DNA of 64,000 nucleotides from Anas platyrhynchos (lineage: Eukaryota; Chordata; Aves; Anseriformes; Anatidae): contig NC_092603.1 in NCBI RefSeq assembly GCF_047663525.1, positions 227,501-291,500 of the forward strand, given 5' to 3'. Shown here in pieces: positions 20,268 through 52,800 of this stretch. The notes below the pieces were generated by a model. It did not search any database. It saw only the letters and a program-made list of their open reading frames with translations, and was not told the DNA's origin. The first letter of the stretch is position 1. The number at the start of each line of letters is the position of its first letter. A program made the translations under genes and the position numbers.

Positions 20268-23200
20268 TCAGGGCAGGCGGAAGGCGTGGGGGGGGAGGGG
20301 GGGTGCAGTGCGAGGCCTCGAAGTTCTGCAGGTGCTTCTGTGCCTGGGGGGGCGATTCAGGGTTAATTACACGGGGGGGTGTAATTAAGGAGGGGGGGGG
20401 TAATTAAGGCAGGGGGGTGCTAATTAGGGCCCCCCCACCCCTTACCAGAAAGGGCAAGGCCTGGCGCTGCTCCACGCCATCTCCTCGCTTTTGGGGGGGG
20501 GGAGCGTTAATTGGGGGCTGTGGCCCCCCCCCCAGCCCCCTGCCCCCCCCCCCCCCCGGTGCCCCCCCCGCGCTCACCCAGGCTCCAGGGGAAGGGAGCA
20601 GCGCGCTGAGCGGCGAAGCCCCCCAGGGTGGCCTCGCACCAGGCCTCGTCCAGCCCCACGCGCCGCAGCACCGCGCCCTAAATGGGGGGGGCGTGGGGGG
20701 GTGGGGGGCACCTCCTGGGTACCCCCCCCCCCGAGGGAGAGGGGGATGGGGGGAGGGGATTGGGGGAAGGGGGGTGAATGGGGGGGGTGGATGGGGGCGT
20801 GTTCCGGTGGGGGAGATTTGTGGTGTGGGGGCTGCAGGAGGCGGAGTTCAAGGATCTGGGAGGTCCAGAGCCAATGGGTCTGGGGAGAGTTAATGGGTGA
20901 GGGGAGAGTTAATGGAGTATAGGGGGGTCCCAAAAGGGGTTGGGGGGCATCCCAATGGCGTGGGGGGGTTAGTGGGGTCTGGGGGGGTCCCAATGGGGTC
21001 TGGGGGGGTCCACAAAGAAGGGGTCCAGGGGGGTCTGGGGGGGGGTTAATGGGGTCCGGGAGGGCTCCTTTCCCCGCGGGGAGAGCAGCTCTCCCTCTCC
21101 TCGGGGCGGGGGGTGGGGAAGAGGACAGCTCTGGCCCACAGGGCGCCCTCATCCGGGCCATGACTCGGTGCCTGGGGGGGGCGGGGTCCGACCCCCACCT
21201 CAAGGAGCCCCCCCGTGCCCCCCCCTCACCGGGTGCTGGGCGCAGCTTCAGCAGGCGTGGCTGCCCGCAGACTGGGAGGCAGGGTGTCCTGGGGACCCTG
21301 GGGGGGGGGGGGTGTGTATAAATTTTGGGGAGGAAGGTCACACAGGGGGGACCTCCACCCCCACACCCAAACTTCACCCCCACCCCAATTTTCCCCCCAC
21401 TAACGTGGTAGTGATGATCTCGTCCGTCGTCCTCCTCACAGCACGGGGCCCTCATCCTTCCTTTAGGAGTGGGGGTTCTGCTTGTTCTGGGAGGGGGGGT
21501 GAGCACAATAGCAGCCCCCAACATCTTGGGGGCCCCACCTGCAGAGCTGCTCCCATTTGTTGAGGTTGAGGTGCTCCCGCACCGTGCGCGTCACCAGCTC
21601 CCCTGCGCCATGACGGGGGGTTAATTAATAATGGGGGGGTTAATTAGCAAAGGGGGGGGGTGATTAATAAATGGGGGGGTCGGGGGGGGGAGGTGAGGGA
21701 CTCGCGCAGCTGCCCGGCAGCACCTTGAGGGCCAGGGGCACCAGGTGATCGAAGGAGGCGTCGAGCACCAGGGCCCCGATCTCGGGGTACGACATCGCCG
21801 CCCACGTGGCTGGGGGTGGGGGGGGGCAATTTTAACCCCGGGGGGGGGTCGTGGAGCCCCCCCCACCTCACGGCCCCCCCTCGTACCGGTGAAGCCGCCG
21901 ATGGACCAGGCGTGTAGCACCGAGGCACGTCGCCCGGGCCGAGCCGGAGGCGTGGGGCGGGTGCTCCACATCCATGGTGGCGTTGGCCTCGCTCTCCGGC
22001 CGCGGCGCCCCCCTCCCTGGGGGGCGGGGGGAGTTTTTGGGGTGGGGGTGGGAAAAAAAATTCCACAGCGGGGGGCGGGAGGGTCCTCACCGTGCTGCCT
22101 GCAGAAGCCGGGTGCCCGGGCCCAGGAGAAGACGGGGTCTCCTCCGGCTGGGCGGGGGGAAGGATTATACCCCCCCCCCGGTGGAGTAGAGCACTAAAAA
22201 ACACCCCCAAATTAAAAGGCCCCCCCGAAAATAGAATCCCAAAAAAAGAAGAATCCCCCAAAAAAACAAAGAGCCCCCAGAAGACAAAGAGCCCCCCTAA
22301 AGAGGAATGCCCCCAGGTGTGGGGGGGGGCATGAAAATAAGGGGGGGCCTATGGGGTGGGGGGGTTGGGGGGATTGAGGGGGCACAATTGGGGGGGGGCA
22401 CAAATATGGGGGGGGCACACAAATTTGGGGGGGGGGGCTGTACCTTCCAGCGGCGTGGCCAGGCAGCCAGCCTCGTAGAGCCGGCGTTGCCCTCGCAGCA
22501 AAAATCACCTGGGGGGGGGTGTGGGGGGTTGGGGGGGGTCACGGTGATCTGCCCCAGCCCCCCCGCCCCCCTGGCCGCAGCTCTGCCCGCGGGGGCCGGG
22601 GGCCGGGCGCCGGTCGATGAACATGGTGTCGATCTCGTTGCCGTCGCAGGCCAGCAGCTTGGCGCGCCGCCCGCCGCACTGCGGGGGGGGGGTCCCCAAA
22701 TTTGGGGGGGGTCCCCAATAAATGGGGGGGGTCCCCACAAATTTAGGGGGTCCCCAATAAATGGGGGGGTCCCAATAAATGGGGGGGTCCCCTATAAATG
22801 GGGGGGTCCCCAATAAATAGGGGGGGTCCCCAATAAATGGGGGGGTCCCCAATAAATAGGGGGGTCCCCAATAAGTGGGGGGGTCCCAATAAGTGGGGGA
22901 GGGGTCCCCAATAAATGAGGGGGGGGTCCCCAATGAATGGGGGGGTCCCAATAAATGGGGGGGTCCCCAATAAATAGGGGGGTCCCCAATAAGTGGGGGG
23001 TCCCCAATAAATGGGGAGGGGTCCCCTATAAATGGGGGGTCCCCTATAAATGGGGGGGTCCCCTATAAATGGGGGGGGTCCCCGAATTTCAGGGGGTCCC
23101 CTATAAATGGGGGGGTCCCCAATGAATGGGGGTGTCCCCTATAAATGGGGGGTCCCCTATAAATGGGGGGGCCTCAATAAATGGGGGGGCCCCCAATAAA

Positions 23201-25925
23201 TGGGGAGGGGTCCCCAATAAATGGGGGGGTCCCCAATAAATGGGGGGGTCCCCAATAAATGGGGGGGTCCCCTATAAATGGAGGGCGTCAATAAATGGGG
23301 GGCCCCAATAAATGGGGGGGTCCCCAATAAACGGGGGGGTCCCAATAAATGGGGAGGGGTCCCCAATAAAGGGGGGGGTCCCAATGAATGGGGGGGGTCC
23401 CCATGAATGGGGAGGGGTCCCCAATAAATGGGGGGTCCCCAATAAATGGGGGGGTCCCCAATAAATGGGGGGGGTCCCCTATAAATGGAGGGGGTCCTCA
23501 ATAAATGGGGGGCCCCAATAAATGGGGGGGTCCCCAATAAACGGGGGGGGTCCCAATAAATGGGGGGGTCCCCAATAAGTGGGGGGGTCCTCAATAAATG
23601 GGGAGGGGTCCCAATAAATGGGGAGGGGTCCCCAATAAATAGGGGGGTCCCCAATAAATGGGGAGGGGTCCCCAATAAAGGGGGGGGTCCCAATGAATGG
23701 GGGGGTCCCAATAAATGGGGAGGGGTCCCCAATAAACGGGAGGGTCCCGGGGGACGACCATCACCTCCTCCACCAGCCGTGCCTGGCCCTGCAGCAGCAC
23801 CGGGAGCAGCGCGCGCTGCAGCAGCCGCACCGAGCCCGAAGGAGACGCCAGCGGCCGCCCCATGCCGGCAGGGAACAGGCTGCGGGCACGCCCAGGGGGC
23901 GGGGTGAGCGGGGACACGCCCACGAAGGGGGCGGGGCGGGGTCACCAAGGGACACGCCCACAGGGGGCGGGGTCAGCGGGGCCCGCCCATAAGGGGCGGG
24001 GGCAGGGAGGTGGACATAGAGGGGGAGGGGGTGGGGCCCCCTGAGGGTGGAGGCCCCGCCCACCAGCCCGCCTGGCCACGCCCACTTCCTTAAAAGGAAG
24101 CCATGGTGCCCCGCCCGTCCCACAGAAGGGGCGTGGCCTCAGGGAGCCCCGCCCACCCCGACCCTTCCAACTCCCTCAAGCCCCGCCCCCAGCTGCCACA
24201 CCCCACCAAGCCCCGCCCACCCACACCAAAGGGGCGTGGCCAGGGGAAACCCCTCCCCCCAATGAACTCCTGACCCCACCCCCGCCAAACGCCCTTTGCC
24301 CCACCTTTGACCCCCGCCCACCAAGACCCGACCCCCCTTCACCACCCACCACCAAGCCCCGCCCACCCACACCAAAGGGGCGTGGGCCAGTACGAAGCCC
24401 CGCCCCTCCACCCGCTCTCCCCCACCCACCCCATTCCCACAAACCCCTCCCCACACAAACCCCTCCCCCTTGGAGCCCCTCCCCTTGCCCACTCTTAGCC
24501 CCACCCCACTCCCATCCCCTCCGGCCCCGCCCGCCCTCTGGCCAACGAGCTGGCACGGCAGCTTCTTGAGGACCCCAGGACGCCGGCGGCCGCCCCTGAT
24601 CCTGCGGCGGGGAGGCGGCGGCCGCGCGGGGCACGGCCCGAGCCCCCCTGCGGGCGGGACGGGTCAGGCGGGGGGGCCCAAATCTCAGAGGAGGGTCCCA
24701 AAAATTTGGGGGGGGTCCCAAAAAGGCGGGGGGGGGGGGCACACCAGGGCCGCCCGGCGCTGTCCCAGCGGAAGTCCACGGGCCAGCTGCGGAAGTCGAA
24801 GGTGTAGGCGGCCAACTCCAGTACCGGAGGACCAAAGGGGGGGGGCGTTTCTAGGGCCCACCCCTCGCCCTCAGGGCCCCCCCCAGCCCCACGACGCCCC
24901 CACCTTGACCTACTGGGGGTGCCCAGGCGGTGGCTGTCCTCCAGCACCGTGATGAACTCCACGTACTGGGGGTTGCAGGCGCCCGGTGCCTCTTTCTGGG
25001 GGGGGGGGGTCTGGGTTGTTTTTTTTTTTTAAGGGGGGGGGGTCCTCAGGTTCGGCCCCCCCCCAGGTAAATTTGGGGTTTGTTGCCCCCCCCCCCCTCA
25101 CCCGCCACCTCGCAGGCAGGCGACGCCGGCCAGCAGCAGCAGCACGGTGGCGGCGCAGTGGGACAGGGGAACCACGCGGGACATGGTCCTGACCCTGGGG
25201 GGGGGGGGGGGGGGGGGGGGTTAACGGGGAGCCCCCCCGGCACGGGGAGACCCCCCACAATAAAAAGCCCCCCCCCCGCCCCCCGGTACCTTTGCGGTAA
25301 GAGGTGAAAGACGGCAAGGGAAACGTAAGCAGGAGGGAGATGGACCACAGCACCGAGGCCTGGGGCGGGGGGGGGTCAGCGGCACGGGGGGGGGCACCGA
25401 GGCCTGGGGGGGCACCGAGCCCCGGGGGGGGTCCCGCAGAGGGGTTTTGGGGGGTTTGGGGGGGTTTATGGGGCTCACCACGCGCCAGCACGCTGTCGTG
25501 CTGGCTTTCTACACTCCAGCCCCCGCGGTTGGTAGTACGAGTCCTGGGGGGGGGCAGGGGGTGAGACCCCCCCCTCCAGTGACCCCCCCCCCGTCCCCTC
25601 CGGCCCCCAGCCTGGTAACGCCCCCCAGACCCCTCCCCCTCCCGGTAACCCCTCCCAGCCCCTCCCCTCCCGTTATTTCCCCCTAGACCCCCCTCCCCAG
25701 TGCCCCCCCCCCTCCTCCCGGTCCTTCCCCAGACCCCCCCCGGTCCCGGTGTCCTCCCCCCGGCCCCTCCCCTCCCGGTGCCCGCCCCCCGGTGCCTCCC
25801 CCCCGGCCCCCCCCGCACCCAGCTGGCTCCCGGGCGCCTCCCCGCCCGGGCCCGACCCCCCCCGCCCGGGCGCGGTGCACGCGGTAGAGGCGCGGCCCCA
25901 GGACGCAGCTCAGCAGCTTCGCCAT
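20268..25925 (-). CDS. ABHD16A: Phosphatidylserine lipase ABHD16A
   Basis: Membrane alpha/beta-hydrolase (BAT5) that makes lysophosphatidylserine from phosphatidylserine in the ER. Exons, 5' to 3' on the minus strand: 25819-25925 (start MAKLLSCVLGPRLYRVHRAR), 25480-25541 (DSYYQPRGLE), 25290-25359 (ASVLWSISLLLTFPL, membrane segment), ~25102-25194 (ATVLLLLAGVACLRG, membrane segment), ~24903-24983, ~24757-24826 (TFDFRSWPVDFRW), ~24544-24650, 23765-23879 (LLPVLLQGQARLVEE), ~22570-22678 (AKLLACDGNEIDTMF), 22444-22508, 22091-22147, 21887-22016 (nucleophile elbow AWSIGGF), ~21701-21809 (LVLDASFDHLVPLALK), 21541-21612, ~21404-21478 (DEIITTT), ~21232-21292, ~21070-21171, 20578-20677, ~20446-20487, 20268-20343. 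Several exons need small slips at homopolymers. The gene is on the strand opposite to that expected from mammalian synteny. Confidence 0.95.
22685..23755 (+). repeat. GGGGTCCCCAATAAATGGGG minisatellite in ABHD16A
   Basis: About 1.07 kb, roughly 45 copies of a 22-26 base unit GGGGTCCCCAATAAATGGGG, with CTATAAATG and AATGAATG variants. It lies in one ABHD16A intron. Most units carry the hexamer AATAAA on the plus strand, antisense to ABHD16A. A higher-order block of about 220 bases repeats (compare 23200-23420 with 23430-23700). Confidence 0.93.
23885..24543 (-). repeat. GC-box-like CCCCGCCCAC repeats in ABHD16A
   Basis: Degenerate intronic array of GGGGCGTGGCC / CCCCGCCCACC units in both orientations. 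It belongs to the same sequence family as 5936-6568 and 19026-19645. No coding potential seen. Confidence 0.7.
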
Positions 25926-26235: not shown

Positions 26236-26239
26236 TAGA

Positions 26240-26535
26240 AGGGGGAATTTACGTTAAATAAATACATTTATTTGCGTGTTTGTTTGCTTCTTTATTAATT
26301 TATTGTTTTAAAAGCAAAAAAATAATTAATTAATTAAAGGTTAAATAAATAAAGGTTGATTAATAAAGGTTAAAGGTTAAATAAATAAAGGTTAAATAAA
26401 TAAAGGTTAAATAAATAAAGATTAAATAAATAAATAAAGATTAACTAAAAAAAGGTTAAATAAATTAGGGTTAAGTAAATTAGGATTAAATGAATTAGGT
26501 ATAAAAATGTTCATTTAAAGGGTTAATTTGATTAC
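26240..26535 (+). repeat. TAAATAAAGGT AT-rich repeat
   Basis: About 290 bases of (TAAA)n and AGGTTAAATAAATAA units between ABHD16A and CSNK2B. It is strikingly AT-rich within GC-rich surroundings. 26590-26770 next to it is a unit of about 45 bases with ACCTGACTAAATGGCCCCAA. No gene is seen in 26236-26900. Confidence 0.85.
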
Positions 26536-27010: not shown

Positions 27011-30000
27011 TCAGCGGATGGTTTTCACCGGGCTCTTGAAGTTGCTGGCGGCCTGCAGCTGCAGCTGGTACGCCATGGGGTGGATCTTGAACCCGTACAG
27101 CCTGCGGGGGGGCGGCTGGAATGGCCCCGGCCCAAAACACCGCCCAAAACACCCCAAAACACCCCAAAACACCACCCCAAAACACCCCAAAACACCGCCC
27201 AAAACACCCCAAAACGCCCCAAAAACACCCCAAAACACCGCCGAAAAACACCCCCACACTGCCCCAAAAACTCCCCAAAACACCCCCACCCCACCCCAAA
27301 ACCCCCCCCTGGCACCAGGCACCCCACACCGCCCCAAAAACACCCCAAAAACACCCCCATACTGCCCCAAAACACCACCCAAAACACCCCCACACCACCC
27401 AAAATGCCCAACACCGCCCAAACACGCTGAGACACCCCCAAATTGCCCCAAACACCCCAACACCCTTAGACACTCCCCAGATCACCCCAACACCTGGTGA
27501 GACCCCCCCCAAATCCCCCCAAAATGTGCTGAGACCCCCTCAAAACCGCCCAAAACCTGCCCAAAACCCACTGAGACGCCCCCAGCCCCCATAAATACCC
27601 TCCAAGCCCCCCAAATCCCCCCCAAGGCCCCCATAAATACCCTCCAGGCCCCCCAAATCCCCCCAGTGCCCCCCACCTCCCCCCCAAATCCCCCTGAAAT
27701 CCCCTCCAAACCCCCTCCGGATATTGCTCCCAATTTCCCCCCAAATCCCCCCCAATCCCCCGCCAGCTCCCCCTAAATCCCCCTCTAACCCCCCCCAGCC
27801 CCCCCTAAATCCCCCCCAGCCCCCCACAGCCCCCCCATATAAATCCCCTCCAGGCCCCCTGCAACCCCCCAATGGCCCCCACTCCCCCCCAAATCCCCCT
27901 GAAATCCCCTCAGGCCCCCCAAAATCCCCCCAAGGCCCCCCAAATCCCCCCAGTGGCCCCCACTCCCCCCCAAATCCCCCTGAAATCCCCTCCAACCCCT
28001 TCAAATCCTGCCCAATTTCCCCCAAATCCCCCCCAAATCCCCCCCAATCCCCCCCCAGGCTCCTAAATCCCCCTCTAACCCCCCCCAGCCCCCTAAATAC
28101 CCCCCCAAGAGCCCCCATGATCCCCCCAGCCCCCCACAGCCCCCCCATAACCTCCAGAGCCCCCAAATGCCCCCCAAGGCCCCCAATGCCCCCCAAATCC
28201 CCCCCAATCCCCCCAATCCCCCCCCAGCTCCCCTAAATCCCCCTCTAACCCCCTCCAGCCCCCCCCATAACCCCCTTCCAGCCCCCCCAGAACCCCCGCC
28301 ATACAAGGGGCGCGAACTGGTGAGGCGGGGCGCTTGGGCGGTACTCGGGGTGCACCATGAACAGCATGTGGGGGAAGCCGTCTTAGAAGTAGGCGCCGTC
28401 GGTGTGGTGCCGCGACGACTTGGGCGTGTAGACGTCCATGGCCATGGGGCAGTACAGCTTCACCATGGCCTCGCCCGGGATGTCCGACAGCCCTGGGGGG
28501 CCCAAAATATGGATAGAGCCCCCCAAAATGCCCTGACCCATACAACCCCCCTATAAACACCCTGACCCCATAAAAATGCCCCTATAAATGCCCTGACCCC
28601 CAGATAACCCACCATGGTCACAAGTTCACCTTGGCCTGGCCCAAGGGATGCCCGACAGCCCTGGGGGCACGGAGGGGACCCCAAAATATAGAATGCGGCC
28701 CCCCAAAATGCCCCGGCCCCATAAAATAACCCTATAAACGCCCTGACCCCAAAAACCCCCAACCCCATGGGGTGGCACCCCAGCCACCTCCCCCAAAAAT
28801 AGGGACACGGCCCTGAGCCCCCCCACAACCCAGCAGCCCCCAAAATCCCGAACACCCCCAGGACCCCCCCAACCCCCCCCGGACCCCCCCGCCCCCCGTA
28901 CCGATGGGCAGCGCTGGGCTGGTTCTCGCGGGACTGGGCCGGGGGGGCAGTACCCGAAGTCTCCCTGCTGGTACTTCTCCAGCTGGGGGGGGCACAAACA
29001 ATGAGGGGGGGTCCCCAAACAACCCGGGGGGTGCCCCCAAAATTTGGGGGTGGTCTAGAATTTGGGGGGAAAAATTTGGGGCCGCACCACCATCTCAGGG
29101 ATGCCGCTTGGTGAGGATGTAGCGGGCGTGGATGAGGCCGTAGAGCATCTCGGCCGCCTGCTCGATCAGGTCGCTCTGGTTGGGGTTATCCTCCAGCTCC
29201 TCGATCTGGGGGGCGCGGGGGGGTTAACGGGGGTGGGGGCGCCCCAGAACCCCCGGACCCCCCCCCCCCGAGCACACCGGCTCCAGGTCCAGGATCATGT
29301 AGAGGGCCTGGCGATGCGGAAAGGTCTCGTTGAGCCCGGTCAGGTTGAACTTGTCCTGGATGTAATCCTAGTCCTGGGGGGGCTTCACTGTGACCCCCCC
29401 TTAAATTCGGGACCCCCCCTTAAATCCACACCCCCCCGCTTCATTTCAGACCCCTCCCTGTTATTTGGGCTCCCCCCCTTTCATTTGGGGCCCCCCCTTT
29501 GCCACGAAGCCTCCCCTTTCATTTGGGATTCCCTCCTTTATTCACCCCCCCCCCCCCCTTTATTTAGGACCCCCCCCCCACTTTATTCACCCCCCCCCCA
29601 CACTTGGGACCCCCCCTTTCTGTGCCCCCTCCCCTTTAATTCCCATTTCCTCCTTCATTCACCCCCCCTTACCCAGGACCCCTTTTATTCCGGCCCCCTC
29701 CCCTTTACTAGAGCCCCCTTTTATTGGGGAGCCCCCCCCTTTTATGTAGCCCCCCTTTACCGAGGACCCCCCCCCTTACTCAGTGCCCCCCCCCATATCC
29801 CGGTGCCCCCCCTTACCCCAGCCCCTTCCCCTTTACCCCAGACCCCCCATTATCCTGACCCCTCCCCCATTTCCCCTCCCCCCTTACCCCAGGCCCCCCC
29901 CCTTACCGAGGACCCCCCCCCTCCCGCCGCCCCTCCCCCCTCCCCCCGGCCCCTCCCCCACCCTCCCCGTTTCCCCCCTCCCCGCCGCTGCCCCCCCGTT

Positions 30001-30098
30001 CTCCCGGTGTCCCCCCCGCCGCCCCCACCTCGCAGAAGAACTCGTTTCCGCGCAGGCCGCGGACCCAGGGAGTCCGACACCTCCTCGGAGCTGCTCAT
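27011..30098 (-). CDS. CSNK2B: Casein kinase 2 regulatory subunit beta
   Basis: Dimeric regulatory subunit of protein kinase CK2. Exons on the minus strand: 30029-30098 ([15 protein letters not shown]), 29278-29373 ([14 protein letters not shown]), 29091-29205 ([20 protein letters not shown]), 28902-28982 ([13 protein letters not shown]), 28305-28492 ([19 protein letters not shown]), 27011-27101 ([22 protein letters not shown]). Exon structure and length match other vertebrates. The family is nearly invariant in animals, yet this copy differs at fixed places. The second cysteine of each zinc-binding pair is not read: ..YCP is followed by a garbled RVYC, and YCPKC reads YCPMA. Two in-frame stops (D*DY at about 29370; AYF*DG at about 28390) and a few indels occur. 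Sequence error is the leading explanation; a decaying copy is the alternative. Confidence 0.94.
27105..28304 (-). repeat. CCAAAACACCCC and CCCCCAAATCCCCCC arrays in CSNK2B
   Basis: The last CSNK2B intron. 27125-27480 repeats CCAAAACACCCCAAAA-type units. 27490-28300 repeats CCCCCCAAATCCCCC with CCATAAATACCCTCC variants in longer higher-order blocks. On the coding (minus) strand both are G-rich. Confidence 0.85.
28612..28660 (-). repeat. Decoy copy of the start of CSNK2B exon 5
   Basis: On the minus strand an acceptor (cccccag) is followed by GGCTGTCGGGCATCCC and then AGGCCAAGGTGAACTTGTGACCATGG in degraded form. This closely parallels the true exon 5 start at 28492, GGCTGTCGGACATCCCGGGC. The copy lies in the intron just upstream of the real exon. 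The flanking sequence after the acceptor (CCAAAATAT..CCCCCCAAAATGCCC on the plus strand) is also duplicated at 28500-28545 and 28680-28715. Confidence 0.8.
29374..30028 (-). repeat. CCCCCTTTATTTAGGACCC array in CSNK2B intron 1
   Basis: Degenerate repeat of about 20 bases built on CCCCCCTTTATTTGGGACC, C/T-rich on the plus strand. It becomes CCCCTCCCCC near the first exon. No gene is seen. Confidence 0.75.
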
Positions 30099-30676: not shown

Positions 30677-32560
30677 ATGGCGCACCTCAGCGCCTTCACC
30701 CGGGCCCGGGTACCGGCGGGCGCTGGAAGGACGGGCTGCGCGCCCCGCCCGGCCCCGAGCGCCCAGCCCCCAGGCCCCCGACACCTCCGCGGGGGCCGAG
30801 GCGCGGCGCTTCTACGAGAGCCTCCTGCGAGACCCCCCCCCCCCACCCCCCCCCCACCCCCACGGCGCCGCCATCGCCCCCCCCCCACAGGGCCCCTTCG
30901 AGGCCCCCTCCCCGCCGGGCCCCGCTGCCCGCGGCCGCCCGGGAGCGTCAGGGCCACGCGGTGCTGCGGGCGGCGCAGGACGGGGACGTGGCGGCGCTGC
31001 GGCGGCTGCTGGAGCGCGAGGGCGGGGACCCGGCCTTCCGCGACGCCTTCGCCTGGACCCCGCTGATGTGCGCCGCCCGCGCAGCCGCGGCCCCGCCGTG
31101 CGCTCCTCCTGCAACGGGGGGCGCCGGCAGGCGCGAGGCCGAGAGGCTGGCGAGGGGGGCCGGGCACCGCGGCGTCGCCAGGGTGCTGAGGGAGTGGGGG
31201 GAGAAGATGGAGGAGGAGGAGGAGGAAGGAGGAGGAAGGTGGGATGAAGGCCAAGGAGGGCAAGGCCGAGGAGGACAAAAAGAAGCCCAAGAAGGAGGAG
31301 GAGGAGGACGAGGAGATGAAGGCCAAGGAGGAAAAGAAGGAGAAGAACAAGGAGGAGAAAGAGGAGGAGGAGGAGGAGCGGTTGAAGGCCAACGGAGAGG
31401 AGGACGACGCCAAGGACGGAGAGGAAAAGAAGCCCGAGGAGGAGGAGGATGAGGAGGGGACGAAGGCCAAGCAGCCGCGGAGGGACCCGGGGCTGAAGGA
31501 CGACGCTGAGGGGCCGAGGAGCGGGGAGAGGAGGAGGGGGAGGCCCAGGAGGGGGCAGAGAGGTGAGAGCACAGCACGGGGCCCCTTGGGGGGGGGCCAG
31601 AACCTTGAGGGGGGGTCCCAGACCCCTTAACGGGGGGGTTGGGGGGGATCCTACACCCCTTGGGGGGGCTCAAACCCTACAAGGGGGGGGCAAAAGCCAC
31701 TCAGGGGGCCCCCAGACCCCTCTGGGGGGGGCCCCCAAACCCTTTGGGGGGGGCTCAGACCCCTTAATGGGGGGGTTGGGGGGGTCCCAGCCCCCTTGGG
31801 GGTGCCCCAACCCCTTAGCGGGGTTCCAGGGGGGTCCCAGCCCCGGGGGTGTTTAACGCCCCCCCGCCCCCTCCCTGCCACCTTCCTGTCCCCGAGGGGG
31901 GGGGCCCGGCCCCCCCCCCCGCCACCGCCGCACACTTTTCCACCGCCCGCAGCGCCACCCCCGTGACCCCGATTCCCCCCTTATTTCCCTTCCCCCCCCC
32001 CCAAAAAAAGAAAAAAAAATCCACTCCCCTTTTTCCCCCCATGCCCCCCCCCAAGCCCGTCTCTGACCCCCCCAAACCCCTCTCAACCCCCCCCATTCCT
32101 TTTCTAACCCCCCCCCCAATTTTTTCTCCCAGCTTCTGCCCTAGCTGCGGCTGCCACTTCCGCGACCCCCCCGGGCGGCACCGGACCTCCACCGCCCACC
32201 TCCTGGCCCGGGGGGGGGCCCCCCGACGCCCCCCCCCCCCCTTCCACATCCCCCCCCAGCAACGTGGGCTTCCGCCTCCTCCTCCGGGGGAGCTGCGGAC
32301 AGCGGGGGGGCTGGGCCCGGCCGGGAAGGGGGTCACAGACCCCCCAAGACCCTCCTCAAACAGACGCCGGGGGCTGGGCTGCCCCGGGGGGCCCCGGCCC
32401 CGCGTCACCCACTTTCGGGCCCCGCGACCCCCGCGCCGTGGCCGGGGGGGGGCCCGAAAAAAGCCCCGGGGGGGGCAAAAAGAAATCGGGGGAACGCATA
32501 AAAAAGGGAGAGACTGAGAGGGCCTGGGAGAGGCGCCTGAGGGCCTACATGGCCCGCTGA
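30677..32560 (+). CDS. GPANK1: G-patch and ankyrin repeat protein 1
   Basis: GPANK1 (BAT4) carries ankyrin repeats, a small Cys/His finger-like motif and a G-patch; its function is poorly known, probably nuclear and RNA-linked. Two exons are read: 30677-31562 and 32133-32560. Visible parts: RWKDGL near the start; ARRFYESLL; ankyrin region [20 protein letters not shown] and [14 protein letters not shown]; then about 110 residues of Glu/Lys-rich sequence (31200-31560). Next come [11 protein letters not shown] and HRTSTAHLL, the G-patch (VGFRLLLRG, then LGPAGKG), PRVTHF, and C-terminal [14 protein letters not shown]. The ATG at 30677 fits the CpG promoter and a Kozak GCCGCCATGG. At least one slip near the start and others in G runs are needed. 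Confidence 0.9.
31565..31860 (+). repeat. CCCCTTGGGGGGGGCCC array in GPANK1 intron
   Basis: Intronic units of AGACCCCTTTGGGGGGGGC type with inverted symmetry (C run followed by G run). 31860-32132 is the C-rich remainder leading to the acceptor at 32131-32132. Confidence 0.7.
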
Positions 32561-32822
32561 GGGAGGGGACGGGGGGGGATTTGGGGGTTAGGAGGAGTCT
32601 GTGGGGGTTTGGGGTTAGGGGTAGGGGGGGCACACACTCATTGCTTCCCCTTCCCCCAGCTCGGATGTGGTTGGGAACAGGAGGGGACAACCAGGAGTCC
32701 CCACCCCACAACTTCCCCCCTTCCCCCGACACCCCCCCGAGGAGGGGGGGCCCGAAACCGCCGCCGAGCCGGGCCCCCCCCCGAAACCACCCCCGGAATC
32801 CCCCAAAACCGCGGGGGGAGGC

Positions 32823-32828
32823 AATAAA
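32823..32828 (+). terminator. GPANK1: GPANK1 poly(A) signal
   Basis: AATAAA about 263 bases downstream of the GPANK1 stop (32558-32560). Confidence 0.7.
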
Positions 32829-33074
32829 CGGCGGGGGGGGGGGGGGCGGGGCTGCCACCCCCCCCCGAAACCCAAACCCGCGGCCTAGGGGGCACTATCG
32901 CTCTGGCTAAAGAGTACGTGGGGGGGGGGGGACCCAAAGCCCCATGGCCCCCCCCTCCGTGGGGGCGGGCGCCCACTTCTGCTTTCGGGGCTGCATCCGG
33001 GGGCGGGGGGGGGCCCGGGGGAGGTGGGGCCCCCCCAGGCCTGGGCGGCGCGCATCCGGCCCTGGGGGGGGGCG

Positions 33075-33400
33075 GCGAGGCCAACTGGGGGGGGGGGATT
33101 TGGGGTGACCTTGGGGGGGGTTGTGGGGCAGAGGAGGGGGGGGTCCTGTGGGGTGGGGGAGCCTTCTGGAGTCAGGGATTCTATAGGATGGGAGGGGACT
33201 TATTGGGCTGGGGGGGCCTTATGGGGTCGGGGGGGGGCCTTATGGAGTTGGGGGGGTCCCTACGGGGCCGGGGGGGGCCCCTATGGAGTCGGGGGGGCCC
33301 AATGGGACGGGGGGGGCCTATGGGGTCGGGGGGGGCCTATGGAGTCGGGGGGGGGCCCTATGGGGCCGGGGGGGGCCCCTATGGGGCGGGGGGGGGCGTG
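33075..33400 (+). repeat. GGGGGGGCCTATGGGGTC array upstream of TNF
   Basis: G-rich repeat of 16-22 bases with TATGGAGTCGGG and TATGGGGCCGGG units. 32829-33075 before it is GC-rich single-copy sequence in which no gene could be recognised. The long open frame across this region is repeat-derived. Confidence 0.7.
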
Positions 33401-33501
33401 TTCCCCACGGGAAAGCCCGGGCGGGGGCGGCGGGGCCGTGGAGGGGGGCCGGGGGCGGGGCCGCGGGCAGAGCCGCGCCCCCCCGCCGCCACCGGGCACC
33501 C

Positions 33502-35015
33502 ATGGGTGCTGCCAGCGCCCCCCCCGCTGCTGCTGCTGCTGCTGCTCTGCGCCGCCGGGACCAAGGCACAGGTGCGACCCCCCCCCAAACCCCAAATCCT
33601 CGTGTCCCCCCGACCCCAAATCCCCAAAACCCTAAAGCTTCCTGTCCCCAAATCCTCGTGTCCCCAAATCCCCCAATTCCCTCGTCCCCAAATCCTCGTC
33701 TTTGTGTCCCCAAATCATCCCCAAATCCCCGTCCCCCCCTCACCCCCCACTGACCTTTTTTCTGCCCCCAGGACCCCACAGCGGTGCCAAGCCCCTCCCC
33801 CTCGGTGAGTCCACCCCCCAAAACCCCAGAATGGCCCCAAAACGGCCCCAAACCCTCCCTGGGTGCCCCCCGACCCCATGACCCCGCTGACCCCATTGTC
33901 CCCCTGTCCCCCCCAGGGCCCCGTCCTGCAGCGCACGGGGACAAACCGGCGGCACACGTCGTGGGTGAGCGGCGTTTATGGGATTTGGGGGTTTGGGGGG
34001 GGATTGGGGTTTGGGGGGGATTTTGGGGGCTTTGGGGATGGGGATGCAGGGGCTATAGGGGATGGGGGCGCGGGGCCGTGTGGGAGGTAGGGAGAGTGGG
34101 GGCTGTCTATAGGGCTGTGTCGTAGCTTATGGGGCCGTGGGGCCGCTTATAGGGTCAGGGGGCGTCTATAGGGTCATGAGGTCATTTATAGGGTCAGGGG
34201 GTATTTATAGGGTCATGGGGCCATTTATAGGGCCATGGGATGTCTATGGGGCGTTTATAGGGTCAGGGGGTGTCTGTGGGGTTGTGGGGCCACTTATAGG
34301 GTCAGGGGGTGTCTATAGGGTTCTGAACCCATTTATAGGGTCAGGGGGCATCTTTGTGGTCAAAGGGTCTTTTTAGGGTCAGGGGGTATTTATAGCGTCA
34401 TGAGGCCATTTATAGGGTCAGGGGGTGTCTGTGGGGTCAGGGGGCATACTTATAGGTTCTCTACGAGGCAACTGCCTGCGGCCCCCAACACCCTGACCCC
34501 TTCCCCTGACCCCCTTTCCCCGCCTCCTCCTCGTCCCCCGAGGGCCGAGGTGTGGGACGACCGCGTGGCGCCCTCGGTGGTCCGCAACGGGGTGCGGCTG
34601 CGGGAGAACAAGCTGGTGGTGCCGCGGGACGGGCTCTACTTCGTCTACGCCGCCGCCGCCTTCCAGGGGGGGCCGTGCCCCCCGCCGCGCCGCCGCCCCC
34701 CCTGCGCGCCTCGGTCAGCCGCTTCTCCGACGAGTACCCCCGCGACGTGCCCCTGCTCACCGCCGTGCGCTGCGTCTGCCCCGGCACCGGGGGCCGCCGG
34801 AGACGCCGGGGGGGGGGCGGAGACTGACGAGACGCCTGGGGGAAGGGGAGAGACACCGGGGGGGGGCGGCAGCTGTGGTTCGAGTCCCTGTACCAGGACC
34901 AGCCGTGTTCCAGCTGCGCCGCGGGGACCAGCTGGCCGCCACCACCACGGCCGCGCGCTTCCTCGACCTGCACGGGGGGGGGCAGGCGTATTTCGGGGTG
35001 GTGGGGGTGGATTAG
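33502..35015 (+). CDS. TNF: Tumor necrosis factor
   Basis: TNF-family cytokine, a type II membrane trimer released by cleavage. Four exons: ~33502-33571 (Leu-rich hydrophobic stretch if read one frame over), 33772-33804 (33 bases), 33917-33964 (48 bases, the same size as mammalian TNF exon 3, reading PAAHGDKPAAHVV), and 34543-35015. The last exon gives the TNF homology domain: NGVRLRENKLVVPRDGLYFV, YAAAAFQGGPCP, VSRFSDEY, DVPLLTAVRC (the Cys pair of TNF), FESLYQDQ, FQLRRGDQLAATTTAARFLD, and ending GQAYFGVVGVD. Small slips are needed in the GC-rich middle (about 34670-34910). The N-terminal exon is uncertain, and the last acceptor reads GAG rather than CAG. LTA was considered; the DKPxAHVV motif, TNF-like Cys pair and ARE favour TNF. 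Confidence 0.9.
34085..34465 (+). repeat. TTATAGGGTCAGGGGGTGTC array in TNF intron 3
   Basis: Units of about 30 bases combining TTTATAGGGTCAGGGGG and TCTATGGGGTC. It fills much of the last TNF intron and shares the TAT(A/G)GGG core with other introns. Confidence 0.85.
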
Positions 35016-35155
35016 GGCGGGGGGGGGCGGATTTGGGGTACGGGGGGGAGGGACCCGAGTGGATGGCCAAGGAGGGAGGTCGGGGGAGGAGGCGTCGGTA
35101 GGGACCAGAGTGAACGCGGAGTGGTGATGGGGGCGGGGGGGGGGGTATTTATGGG

Positions 35156-35315
35156 GGGGGGGGCGGTGGGGGGGGGTATTTATGGGGGGGGGCGTTATTT
35201 ATCCAGTATTTATCTATTTATGGCGCCGCGGCCCTACCGTGTAGGGCCTGAGATGATTTCATTGTTTTGGGGCCAGAAATGTCTATTTTTGTAGGGCTTG
35301 GGGTTATTTATTGCC
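35156..35315 (+). promoter_or_regulatory. TNF: AU-rich element in TNF 3' UTR
   Basis: At least five ATTTA pentamers occur: two spaced TATTTATG motifs, then a cluster TTATTTATCC, AGTATTTATC, CTATTTATGG (35194-35223), plus TTATTTATTG at about 35304. This matches the known instability elements of mammalian TNF mRNA (TTP/ZFP36 binding) and stands out in a region otherwise nearly free of A/T. Confidence 0.85.
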
Positions 35316-35338
35316 CCCTGCTGCGGGGGGGTCAAAGG

Positions 35339-35344
35339 AATAAA
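35339..35344 (+). terminator. TNF: TNF poly(A) signal
   Basis: AATAAA about 325 bases after the TNF stop codon at 35013-35015, directly following the AU-rich element. Confidence 0.8.
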
Positions 35345-35394
35345 GGCTGAAGCCAGCGGAGCGGCTGTGTCAGCGCGTTTTGGGGCGAATCCGG

Positions 35395-36120
35395 GCGGTT
35401 TTGGGGTCTGGGGGGGTGGGGAGGGAGCTGGGGGGGGATTTGCGGTGAATTTGGGGGGATTTGGGAGGGATTTCAGAGATTTTGGAGAAACTTTGGGGGG
35501 AGGTTTGGGGAGAATTTGGGGGGATTTGGGGGAGGATTTGGAGGATTTTGGAGAATTTGGGGGGATTTGGGGGAGTTTGGGGAAGATTATGGGAGGGATT
35601 GGCTTAAAATTCGAGAGATTTGGGGGAGGTTGGAGACTTTCTGTAGATTTGGGAAGAATTTAGGGGATTTGAGGGCATTTCAGGGAATTTAGGGAGGGAT
35701 TTGGGAGGATTTGGGAAGGTTTCGGGGATTTGGGGTAGATTTCGGGGATTTGAGAAGTTTAGGGGGATTGAGGGGAATTGGGGGAGGATTTGGGGGGATT
35801 GGGGAGGGTTTGGGTGAGTTGGTTTTTTTTTCAAATTTGGGAGATTTGGGAGAATTTGGGGGAATTGGGGAAACCCTGGGGGGATTTGAGGAGATTTGGG
35901 GGTCACTGGGGGAATTTGGGGGGATTTGGGGGATTTTCGGAATTTTCAGAAATTTTGAAGAAATTGAGAATTTTGGAGGAATTTCGTGGGGTTTTGGGGA
36001 GGTTTTGGGGTTTTTGGGGTCAATTGGGGGATTTTGGGGAGGTTTTTCGGAAATTTGGGAAATTTGGAATTTTTCAGTGGGCATTTTGGGGGGTTTTAGA
36101 GAATTTTGTAATTGATTAAG
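35395..36120 (+). repeat. GGGGGATTTGGGGGAATTT degenerate repeat
   Basis: About 720 bases of G/T/A units (GATTTGGGGGA, AATTTGGGGG) between TNF and the PRRC2A promoter. The plus strand is almost free of C. No coding sequence for LTB, LST1, NCR3 or AIF1 is recognisable. Confidence 0.85.
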
Positions 36121-36239: not shown

Positions 36240-37057
36240 ATTTCCCAATCTGGGGGGGGGGGGCGGGAGGGAACAGCGCGGTTGCCATGGGGACGGGACG
36301 GAGGGGGGGGGGGTGATCGCGGTTGCCATGGTGACGGTTGCCACGGCGACGGCGGCCGGAAGGAGGCCGCGGCCCGGTTGCCGTGACGACAGCGGGGAAG
36401 GGAGGGGGGAGCGATTCCCAGGCGAGGGGGCGTGGCCACGGCGGCGCGAACCACTGCGTGCGGGGGGGGAAAGGGCGGGGGGAGCCCTTTTAGCCCCTCC
36501 CCTAAGCCCCAAACCCCCCCGCTTCCCGCCGTGGCCGCGCCCGGCCGGGCCCCACCCAATCACCTCCCGCTCCTCGCCGGCCCCGCCCCACTCCTGGCGA
36601 CGCCGGCGCCGCGCCGCGCATGCGCGCAGCCGCCGGGCGGCCGTTGGCGGGGCGGGGCCGGGGCTCCGCCGCCGGGGCTGGGCCACCGGGAATCCGCCGC
36701 CATCCGCGCCCGCCGCCCCCGTCCGCCACCCCCCGCGCCCTCCCGCGGCCCCTCCCGGAGCCCGCCCCGGCGCCCGCAGGTCGGTATCGGCCGCGGGGAC
36801 CCCGCGCCGGGGCCGCGATGGCCGCCGCCGAGCCGCCCCCCCCCCCGGGGGCCGCCATTCACCGCGCGGCCCAGGCGCGTCTTCGGCCTGGGCCCAGGGC
36901 GGGCGGGAGGGGGAGGGAAGGGGGTTGGGGGGGGGAGGGGAGGGGAGGGGGCGCGCAGCGGAGCCCCCCCCCCCAGGTTCTGACCCCGCTCCCCCCCCCC
37001 CAGGCGCCCAGCCGCCCGCCCGGCGGCCCCCCCCGTGCTCAATGCGCGGCCCCCGCG
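36240..37057 (+). promoter_or_regulatory. PRRC2A: PRRC2A CpG promoter and 5' UTR
   Basis: X-box-like elements lie at 36281 (GTTGCCATGGGGAC), about 36322 (GTTGCCATGGTGAC) and about 36336 (GTTGCCACGGCGAC). An NRF1-type GCGCATGCGCGC is at about 36616, with dense CpG to 36790. A likely 5'-UTR intron runs from a donor near 36780 (gcag|gtcgg) to an acceptor ending near 37003, before the ATG at 37058. The start site is inferred. Confidence 0.7.
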
Positions 37058-49479
<12,422 letters not shown>

Positions 49480-49785
49480 CCCCCCCATAGCGGGGGGAGG
49501 GCCGGGGGCTTCCCTGTGGGGCTGGGGGAGGGGGAATTACAGGAGCAACAACCCCCCAGTGGGGCTGGGGGGGGCTGCGTGCCCCCTCCTGCTCATGGAC
49601 CCCCACCCCATGGGGTCTCTGTCCCCACACTTGTGGGTCCGTGCCCCACACTTATGGGCCTCCCCCGGCCCCACCACCCCTCCCCCCTGTCGGGCTGCGG
49701 CCCCTTTGTTAAAGAGATGCCCGAGCAAGACAAAAAAAAAAAAACATAAAAAAAAAAAAAACTCGTTTGCAGAAAAAAAAAACAG

Positions 49786-49791
49786 AATAAA
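49786..49791 (+). terminator. PRRC2A: PRRC2A poly(A) signal
   Basis: AATAAA within an A-rich stretch (49728-49800) that includes two A runs of 12-14 bases. It is about 310 bases after the PRRC2A stop. Confidence 0.75.
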
Positions 49792-49849
49792 AGTGACGAA
49801 ATCAAGTGGGGCGTGGCGAGAGGCGGGGCTTAGAGCAGGGGGCGGAGCC

Positions 49850-49855
49850 TTTATT
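49850..49855 (-). terminator. BAG6: BAG6 poly(A) signal
   Basis: Minus-strand AATAAA only 30 bases beyond the BAG6 stop and 59 bases from the PRRC2A signal on the other strand. The two mature 3' ends should therefore nearly abut or overlap. Confidence 0.8.
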
Positions 49856-49884
49856 GGGGGGGGGGCCGCGGGGGGGGCCCTCAA

Positions 49885-52800
49885 CTACGTGAAGGCGCGC
49901 TGGGCGCAGGGGAGGCGCCGGGGGGCGCCGAGTCGGGGTCCTCGCGAGGCGGCGCTGGAGGTCGGCCAGGAGCTGGGGGCGGGGCCGGAGGGAGGGGGGC
50001 GGGGCCAGAGGGGTGGGCGGGGCGTCAGCTGGCCACGCCCACCCACCTGCCACACCCGAGTCCCAGGGAACCTCAACACAGGGGGACCCCTCCCCAGACC
50101 CCACCCATGGGAGACCCCCCAGGATCCCTCCCAACAGAGCCCTGTGAGATCCCCACACAGACACCCCCGTCCCCCCGGTTCCCCAAATACCCCCCAAAAT
50201 TCCCCCTAAACCCTTCCCATAGTCCCAAACCCACCCCAAATCCCTCCAAAATCCCCCTAATGCCCCCCAAATGCCCCCCAGGTCCTTTCCTGGACCATCC
50301 CAAGACCCCCAGGACACCTCAGGGCTCCCCCACAGGACAAGACCGCCCCCACAACCCCATCAGGACCCCCAGATCCTTCCCAGCCCCCAGGACACCCCAA
50401 CCCCCTCCATTCCCAGGCCCCCCTGGTCTCCCTCCCATACCCCCAGACCCCAAACTGCTGACACCATCCCTCCCCACCTGCTTGCGACCCCTCCTGCAGG
50501 GGCCCCTCGCTCAGCTCCCGGTTCAGGCTCTCCGGGGACCCCAGGGGCCGGGCACCGGCGGCTGGGCAGGCGCCCACGGCCTCGGCCAGGGCCAGCAGCA
50601 GGAGAGCCCTGGCCTGCATTGTATTGGTCTATGGGAGGGAGGGAGGGGTCAGTGGGAGGCTGTGGGGCAGGCTATGGGTTGAGGGGACATGGGTCAGGCT
50701 GTGGGGCAGGGTTATGGGGCAGGATCTATGGGGCAGGCTATGGGGCAGGCTATGGGGCAGGGTTATGGGGCAGGCTATGGGGCAGGCTATGGGGCAGGGC
50801 TATGGGGCAGGATCTATGGGGCAGGCTATGGGGCAGGGTTATGGGGCAGGCTATGGGGCAGGCTATAGGGCGGGCTATGGAGCAGGCTATAGGGCAGGCT
50901 ATGGGGCAGGATCTATGGGGCAGGCTATGGGGCAGGACCTCCACCTTGCGGCGCTTGGCGGGCATGCCGGTCAGGTAGGCGTCGCTCAGGGGGGGCTGCG
51001 GCTTGCCCTTGCGCTGGGTCTGGACGTCCTCGCGGATGATGAGGGGGACCCACTCCTGGGGGGGGGGGGTCCCGGGTGAGCCCCCCGATACACACATGGC
51101 GTAGGACCCCCCCCCCACGTCGACCCCCGCAGCCGGTCGGCGGCTCCTCCACCGGGGGCCCGCGGCGGCCGCCCACGCCTCGCTCTCATTCGGCGCGCGC
51201 CTCCTCCCGGCCGTGGTGGCGGGGGCGGGGGAGGCGGCGCCCTCGCGCTGCGGGGGAGGGGCGGGGGGGAGGGGGCGGGGTCAGCGCAGGCCACGCCTCC
51301 CACGCCTCCCCACCCGCCGTGGCCACGCCCACCTCCGGCGGCGGCTCCGCCTCCTGGGTCTCCATTGGCTCCTCCGGCAGGGCAGGGGCTGGGGGCAGAG
51401 AGGGGGCGTGGTCAGGGTGAGGTGGGCGGGGCCCAGGGAAAGGGGCGGGGCCTGAGATGGGAGGGGGCGGGGTCATGGAAGGGGCGGGGCCAGAAGGGGG
51501 CGTGGCCAACGAGAAGGGGTGGGGCCTGGCTCGAGAGGGGGCGGGGCCAGGAGACAAGGGGGCGGGGTCAGGGCGAGTGGGCGGGGCTACCCGGGACAGT
51601 GGCAAAGTGGGTGTGGTTAAGGGGCATGGCTCAGGAGGAGGGCGTGGCTAAGGGGAGAAGGGGGCGTGGCTAAAGAAAGGCACAGGTAACATAAAGGGGC
51701 GGGGTTAAGGGAAATGGGGCGTGGTTCAGGAGAGGGGGCGTGGTTAAAGAGAGGGAGTGTTCCTGTCCCGGGGCGCCCACCTGCTGCGGGGGGGGGTCCC
51801 CGAGGCGCCGCACGTAGGGCAGGATCTGCTCGGGGGTACCGGCATCTGCTCCAGCACCCTGCGGGCCAGACATCCCCACCACGGCCGTGAGCCACGACAC
51901 CAGCGGCGCGACGGCGCCACGTCGGCCGACATGCGGCGCTGGGGGGGGGGGGGGAGGAAACCGGGTGCCGGTCTCTCTGTGTGTCTGTGCCCCCCCACAG
52001 TCCCCCCTGACCCCCCCCAGCCCCCCACTCACGATGCGGTCGCTGCCAGTGAGCGCCCCCAGGGCCGCGCGCTCCCCCGCAGGCAGTGCAGGTTCAGCGC
52101 CAGGCACTCGAACAGGGCCCGGTTGCCAAGCTCCGGAGGCAGGGGCCGAAGCTGGCGTCTGGGGGACACGGGGGGGTGCTCAGTACCAAGGGGGGGGTTT
52201 CATGCCCCGCCCCGTGCCCCCCACCCACCCGGAGCAGCGCAGGATGTGCAGGGCAATGCGGCGCTGGAAGTGCTCCTGCAGGAACTCCACGTTGGTGCGG
52301 GTGATGTCCACGCCCTCAGCAACCTGCACCCCGCCTGGGGGGGGGGACACGGGGGGGGGGTGAGGGGACAACCCCCCCACAAACCCCCCAAGTACCCCCC
52401 CAACTTACAGAGCCCCCCCTGCCCAGAACCCAAACCCCCCAACACCCCCCAAAGGACTCCTACTCCCAACTCCCCATCCCCCAAATCCCCCCCAAACCCT
52501 CAATTCCCACCCTAGAACACCCAAATCCTCCCCAAATCCCCTCCAAAGCCCCTCCCCAACCACCCACAACCCCCAAATTCCCTCCCAAATCCCCAATTTC
52601 CCCCTCAAAAACCAAAATTGTCCCCAAAATCTATCCCAAGTCCACTCCCAACCCCCTCCAAACCCCCAAATCCCCTCCCAAATCCCCTCCAAACCTCAAA
52701 TCCCCCTCAAACCCCAGATCCCCACCCAAACCCCCAAATCCCCCCCAAATCCCCCCAAACCCCTTCCCAATCCCCTCTTCACCACCCAATCCCCCCCAAA

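Follow-up and report, generated by a model that had tools for sequence, protein, structure and literature searches.

A probable TNF orthologue, with an AU-rich element in its 3' UTR, in a GC-rich MHC class III block of a bird-like genome

The plus strand of the window (the whole stretch of DNA analysed here, 64 kb) carries at about 33502-35345 a TNF-family gene, which is very probably the orthologue of TNF (TNFSF2) in a bird-like genome. It lies on the PRRC2A side within a GC-rich block of MHC class III genes and is read through a noisy assembly. Judged from the sequence, TNF appears to be the best reading of four kinds of evidence, i.e., the sequence scores, a separate 48-nt exon, an AU-rich element (ARE) in the 3' UTR and the linkage to PRRC2A. 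Avian TNF is already in print since 2017-2018, and the present locus is a further case. Points that may add to what is known are a candidate decay hairpin next to the ARE, a G-rich loop insertion and the N terminus.

Chicken TNF was reported in 2017 (PMC5470226) and was characterised in 2018, with LPS induction, active protein and orthologues in 12 more birds (PMC5913325). For the crow, four exons were described, and the 80-kb contig of that gene carries nine MHC-linked genes (PMC5913325). Chicken TNF was mapped to chromosome 16 together with CSNK2B and ABHD16A in 2019 (PMC6770569), and avian TNF was placed in the Silkie genome assembly in 2023 (PMC10700341). By these published descriptions, avian TNF has four exons, high GC content and MHC linkage (PMC5913325, PMC6770569, PMC10700341). 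The present gene resembles chicken, crow and Silkie TNF in being a GC-rich TNF-domain gene (four exons are given for crow and Silkie) and in its linkage to CSNK2B and ABHD16A (PMC6770569); lymphotoxins were likewise not found.

TNF homology domain and exon plan

The features of the gene are as follows (positions in the window):

33502-33571, plus strand: candidate TNF exon 1 (ATG at 33502; donor CAG/GTGCGA; Leu-rich hydrophobic core at 33524-33556 in the neighbouring frame)
33772-33804, plus strand: TNF exon 2 (33 nt; AG/GTGAGT borders)
33917-33964, plus strand: TNF exon 3 (exactly 48 nt; AG and GT borders; encodes DKPAAHVV)
34138-34447, plus strand: TTATAGGGTCAGGGGG-type minisatellite in TNF intron 3
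34543-35015, plus strand: coding part of TNF exon 4 (TNF homology domain, interrupted by two frame changes and an in-frame TGA; end GQAYFGVVGVD-TAG)
34800-34866, plus strand: G-rich insertion (loop after the second cysteine; three 14-nt repeats; ~20 residues)
35016-35345, plus strand: predicted TNF 3' UTR (stop to poly(A) signal, 330 nt)
35146-35221, plus strand: AU-rich element with five TATTTAT (a sixth at 35305-35311)
35230-35248, plus strand: candidate Roquin-type constitutive decay hairpin (perfect 8-bp stem, CGU triloop, C-G closing pair)
35339-35344, plus strand: poly(A) signal AATAAA

Four pieces of the gene were given to Pfam. The uninterrupted piece 34550-34705 matched the TNF family (PF00229) with E=4.6e-9, piece 34905-35014 matched it with E=0.0066, which is under the curated cut-off on its own, and the other two of the four gave no family; NCBIfam gave no match among the TNF pieces. 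When the pieces were joined by X, the PF00229 match rose to E=2.3e-21. Searched against all PDB sequences, the joined pieces found TNF best (100.4 bits), followed by the best lymphotoxin-alpha (LTA) with 63.3 bits, LIGHT and TL1A with 35.3 bits each, and LTB with 29.4. Piece 34550-34705 alone also put TNF before LTA (TNF 2.7e-9, LTA 9.5e-5, FASL 3.6e-4), while piece 34699-34800 was marginally closer to LTA (15.0 bits vs 13.7 for TNF), both being chance-level scores alone. In an alignment of 11 rows, the cysteines of the GGPCPPP and VRCVCPG stretches fall in the columns of the TNF disulfide pair, and the stop TAG at 35013-35015 follows straight after GQAYFGVVGVD.

The four-exon TNF plan with a separate 48-nt exon 3 is present as well. 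AG/GT signals mark the end of exon 1 (33571), both borders of exons 2 and 3, and the start of exon 4 (34543); exons 2-4 were thus placed by their borders, and the border of exon 1 is plausible. In mammalian TNF, the 48-nt exon 3, the cysteine pair and the TNF homology domain are found likewise. Human TNF exon 2 has 46 nt, and both exon 1 and the 33-nt exon 2 of the present gene, short as they are, depart from the mammalian plan. Further differences from mammalian TNF are a shorter segment between VV and W and the G-rich insertion after the second cysteine. The earlier note had proposed a TNF gene with a readable homology domain, the DKPAAHVV exon of 48 bases and the GQAYFGVVGVD end, and all three were confirmed. 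Its conserved exon plan stands for exon 3 and the domain exon but not for exon 1 and the length of exon 2. The cysteine pair it named is there, although it is weaker as evidence than supposed, as the rows for 7dov LTA, LIGHT and FASL also have two cysteines there.

The C-terminal domain would form the usual trimeric jelly-roll ligand, held by the disulfide, and this trimer would be expected to bind and activate TNF receptors. The gene is presumably intact and expressed in the animal.

The surrounding MHC class III block

The genes of the block stand in the order VARS1, DDAH2, ABHD16A, CSNK2B, GPANK1, TNF, PRRC2A, BAG6. The DDAH gene we take to be DDAH2, by position. The neighbours of TNF were recognised as follows:

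VARS1, plus strand: PF00133 in all three pieces given (one just under the cut-off); valS models
DDAH, plus strand: DDAH1 chains, 3.7e-14
21523-25028, minus strand: ABHD16A (weak N-domain match, 0.072; otherwise by eye)
27014-30098, minus strand: CSNK2B (5 frame changes, 1 stop)
30677-32565, ends approximate, plus strand: GPANK1 (best ankyrin match 3.5e-4, under the curated cut-off; G-patch-like and C-terminal pieces by eye against the human protein)
36817-50000, plus strand: PRRC2A (BAT2_N 4.3e-10 and 0.082; N terminus at ~36817; 3' end approximate, by eye)
BAG6, minus strand: PF12057 2.7e-5, just under the cut-off

Pfam gave no family for 6 of 10 (two of them out of frame), 5 of 10 and 4 of 6 pieces in three batches that included pieces of neighbour genes. 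PRRC2A is the next gene recognised downstream of TNF, on the same strand, and the linkage to MHC class III genes is evident. The human order is TNF (plus), LTB, LST1, NCR3, AIF1, PRRC2A (plus), BAG6 (minus), APOM, C6orf47, GPANK1 (minus), CSNK2B (plus), ABHD16A (minus), DDAH2 (minus), VARS1 (minus). Against this order, the PRRC2A side is kept, i.e., TNF lies upstream of PRRC2A on the same strand in both, whereas the block from GPANK1 to VARS1 is found on the opposite side of TNF and is mostly turned round. The expectation that PRRC2A follows downstream was borne out, on the conserved side. The earlier note also counted GPANK1 as orthology support: a plus-strand gene that fits GPANK1 does lie upstream of TNF, but it is not a conserved flank, because in human it is located beyond BAG6. 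Its position upstream of TNF reflects an inverted or moved block.

No LTB or AIF1 was seen nearby, which is another difference from mammalian TNF; in tblastn, AIF1 gave no match and the LTA and LTB queries matched the TNF exon only (frame noise could mask weak genes). The literature searched, which covered the crow figure of PMC5913325 by its legend, contained no description of the order GPANK1-TNF-PRRC2A in a bird, and we do not claim the order to be unreported.

Three further observations concern the block. The ABHD16A pieces (mostly recognised by eye) and CSNK2B are on the same strand here, whereas the human pair is convergent, so that a local inversion is possible. On the minus strand at 28600-28690, the intron that precedes the true exon 5 of CSNK2B contains, by eye, a seeming decayed partial copy of the start of this exon (GGGCTGTCGGGCATCCC...). 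ARAGORN predicted tRNA-Pro genes at 14147-14234, 31716-31806 and 63338-63424, which are probably false; one of them falls inside GPANK1.

Lymphotoxin, pseudogene and N-terminal alternatives

The closeness of TNF and LTA was examined in a maximum-likelihood tree of 11 rows (the window gene, three TNF, three LTA, LTB, LIGHT, FASL and TL1A; mostly mammalian). The window gene grouped with TNF with a support of 65/65, a fork left open in the drawing. A constraint to mammalian LTA makes the tree worse by 1.6 log units and was not rejected (p-AU 0.235), and placement of the gene with 7dov LTA (p-AU 0.168), LTB (0.142) or TL1A (0.060) was not rejected either, while the constraint with LIGHT gave p 0.016. 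By itself, the tree is therefore not decisive between TNF and LTA: the phylogenetic test proposed for this locus returned the grouping with TNF, yet the LTA grouping was not rejected. The window gene is identical to mouse TNF in 45% of columns (62 of 137), to 8kb6 TNF in 41% (55 of 133) and to human TNF in 39% (56 of 142); for LTA the values are 39% with mouse (51 of 131), 36% with human (47 of 131) and 32% with 7dov (42 of 131). At the positions of the cysteine pair, human LTA has none, the mouse LTA row one and 7dov LTA both, so the pair fails to exclude every LTA. An LTA orthologue, or a retained TNF/LTA ancestor, would also account for the LTA-like stretches FSDEYPRDVPLL and GDQL, for the slight preference of piece 34699-34800 and for a possible signal-peptide start as in mammalian LTA, with which the gene shares the TNF-family branch. 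We nevertheless consider this highly improbable. In mammalian LTA a single exon takes the place of exons 2 and 3 of TNF, a plan not found at the locus; the best relative over the domain is not LTA, the whole domain scoring 37 bits higher for TNF, and human LTA lacks both cysteines. Furthermore, bird TNF lies outside the lymphotoxins in the published avian tree (PMC5913325). TNF is thus favoured over LTA because of the whole-domain score, the separate exon 3, the 3' UTR and this tree.

As assembled, the TNF reading frame is not intact, a point that the earlier note does not mention. Reading from the hydrophobic part of exon 1 through exon 3 to the start, the middle and the end of exon 4 takes at least four frame changes, and an in-frame TGA stands at 34825-34827, between two pieces of the same frame, which amounts to 4 frame changes and 1 stop in ~624 coding nt. 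As a yardstick we used CSNK2B, which is expected to be nearly invariant among vertebrates. Human CSNK2B (a query equal to its PDB chain, 215 of 215) was aligned to the minus strand in a frameshift-aware manner; the alignment spans 206 of the 215 residues, with 204 aligned and 2 in gaps. Of these, 179 are identical and 19 substituted, and there are 5 frame changes and 1 stop in ~612 nt. All 29 residues of exon 6 were identical, as were 32 of the 33 aligned in exon 3, the damage being mainly in exons 1, 4 and 5. As CSNK2B, which is expected to be intact, is broken about as often as TNF, we read the TNF breaks as assembly noise, which is likelier than a pseudogene. The damage to both genes, together with the decayed copy of exon 5 in the CSNK2B intron (by eye), would fit a true pseudogene of TNF, or a duplicate of the entire block that is in decay; the breaks would then be real and no TNF would be made from this copy. 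However, near-perfect CSNK2B exons 6 and 3 beside damaged exons 1, 4 and 5 look like patchy sequence quality, and the splice borders, stop, ARE and poly(A) signal of TNF are all in place, making such decay improbable. Rohde et al. (2018, PMC5913325) regarded an insertion of 55 G, close to the 3' end in a previous sequence of chicken TNF, as an artefact; the G-rich insertion at 34800-34866 and this insertion could mark the same unstable spot.

With TNF as the preferred reading, its N terminus may be either a long-tailed type II anchor, the form published for chicken, or a short signal peptide. Within 32566-33760, hydrophobicity is highest in LLLLLLLCAAG at 33527 (mean Kyte-Doolittle value 2.94 over 11 residues; best 19-residue mean 1.84). 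Its frame is free of stops upstream to 32828, i.e., for more than 240 codons; five ATGs stand in this frame between 33188 and 33320, and basic residues directly precede the core, as in a type II tail. A 20/21-nt minisatellite at 33210-33397, directly upstream of TNF, makes up much of this open frame. The ATG at 33502, in contrast, immediately precedes the Leu-rich core of ~11 residues with its TKA-Q end, and a short cleavable signal peptide starting there, with no long type II anchor, would let the ligand be secreted directly. The published chicken lengths conflict in a way that leaves room for this variant: the chicken model has 285 amino acids, with an extended intracellular domain variable among birds, while an earlier chicken sequence was 216 nt shorter at the 5' end (PMC5913325) and Silkie TNF has 210 amino acids (PMC10700341). 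If ATG 33502 is used, the N terminus differs from that of the 285-amino-acid model. On the other hand, this ATG and the hydrophobic core are in differing frames as assembled, and Rohde et al. describe RT-PCR across the whole 285-amino-acid coding sequence (PMC5913325). Together with the long open frame, this makes the signal peptide possible but rather unlikely. A bolder version, which we hold to be improbable, is that bird TNF is a secreted LTA-like ligand covering for the missing lymphotoxins, with a signal peptide in place of the anchor and the 'extended intracellular domain' being a 5' UTR minisatellite, while the ARE and a Roquin hairpin still throttle the message. As a point against the TNF reading, neither a TATA box nor a forward strict kB site was found in 32566-33502 among the elements looked for; this stretch has one reverse strict kB match (32795), four loose kB matches and one GGGAAAGCCC at 33409.

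The 3' UTR and its decay elements

The predicted 3' UTR contains six ATTTA, every one within TATTTAT. Dinucleotide shuffles of the UTR had 0.73 ATTTA on average, and none of 2000 reached six, so the cluster of pentamers noted earlier is real. In the whole window, 6 of the 9 plus-strand TATTTAT start in one 200-nt stretch at the TNF 3' UTR. Two of the six ATTTA are contained in a 31-nt tandem duplication, and the full TTATTTAWW nonamer occurs only once in the UTR. The minus strand has a denser AT-rich cluster near 26258-26430, so that the density of motifs does not by itself set this UTR apart. AT-rich islands with many ATTTA on one strand lie at 26239-26430 and 62400-62990 in GC-rich surroundings. 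An ARE with six UAUUUAU sites for TTP-type proteins would be expected to keep the message short-lived.

The candidate hairpin starts 8 nt past the last TATTTAT of the main cluster. According to PMC6294493 and PMC5603727, the constitutive decay element of TNF is a hairpin that carries a YRY triloop and preferably a Y-R closing pair, and Roquin recognises it mostly through its shape. Among triloop hairpins with a YRY loop and a C-G closing pair, this is the single one with a stem of at least 8 pairs on both strands of the window; with stems of at least 6, there are 3 on the plus and 2 on the minus strand. Such hairpins arose in shuffled UTRs in 0 of 3000 cases for stems of at least 8, in 5 of 3000 for at least 6 and in 24 of 3000 for at least 5. 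The human TNF decay hairpin likewise has a CGU triloop. Besides this loop, the C-G closing pair, the single short stem and the position 3' of the ARE agree with the mammalian element, so that, as in mammalian TNF, the ARE is followed by a (candidate) decay hairpin. The candidate differs from the mammalian element in its 8-bp, G/C-rich stem, and its second pair from the loop is A-U, vs Y-R in the first TNF consensus.

Folding depends on the context. The probability of the closing pair is 0.978 in an 81-nt context (35200-35280). It falls to 0.026 when the whole predicted UTR is folded and to 0.003 for 35222-35345, competing pairings being favoured in both; the high-confidence set of PMC6294493 required a folding probability above 5%. 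Because it is outcompeted in the whole-UTR fold (P 0.03), we designate 35230-35248 as a candidate decay element only, with the motif present and its folding context-dependent. Folding of the whole UTR was no better than that of shuffles (z 0.01; 50 of 100 shuffles at least as stable). Rfam at gathering scores gave no match over the window, and by E-value a single chance-level match (E 0.97) on 35016-35400. In longer folds, the 5' arm of the candidate hairpin can pair instead with a second GUAGGGC-like stretch 3' of the hairpin (within 35230-35300), which may be a switch or simply noise. If folded in the full message, a Roquin-type hairpin behind the ARE would perhaps add to message decay.

With this locus there is one more genomic copy, 3' UTR included, of an avian cytokine that was once considered 'missing'. 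That even CSNK2B reads broken here gives a measure of the trust due to gene models in such regions. The form of the N terminus matters, as membrane-bound and directly secreted TNF would signal differently. Finally, both mRNA-decay elements of mammalian TNF, the ARE and the Roquin-type hairpin, may persist in what are now G-rich surroundings.
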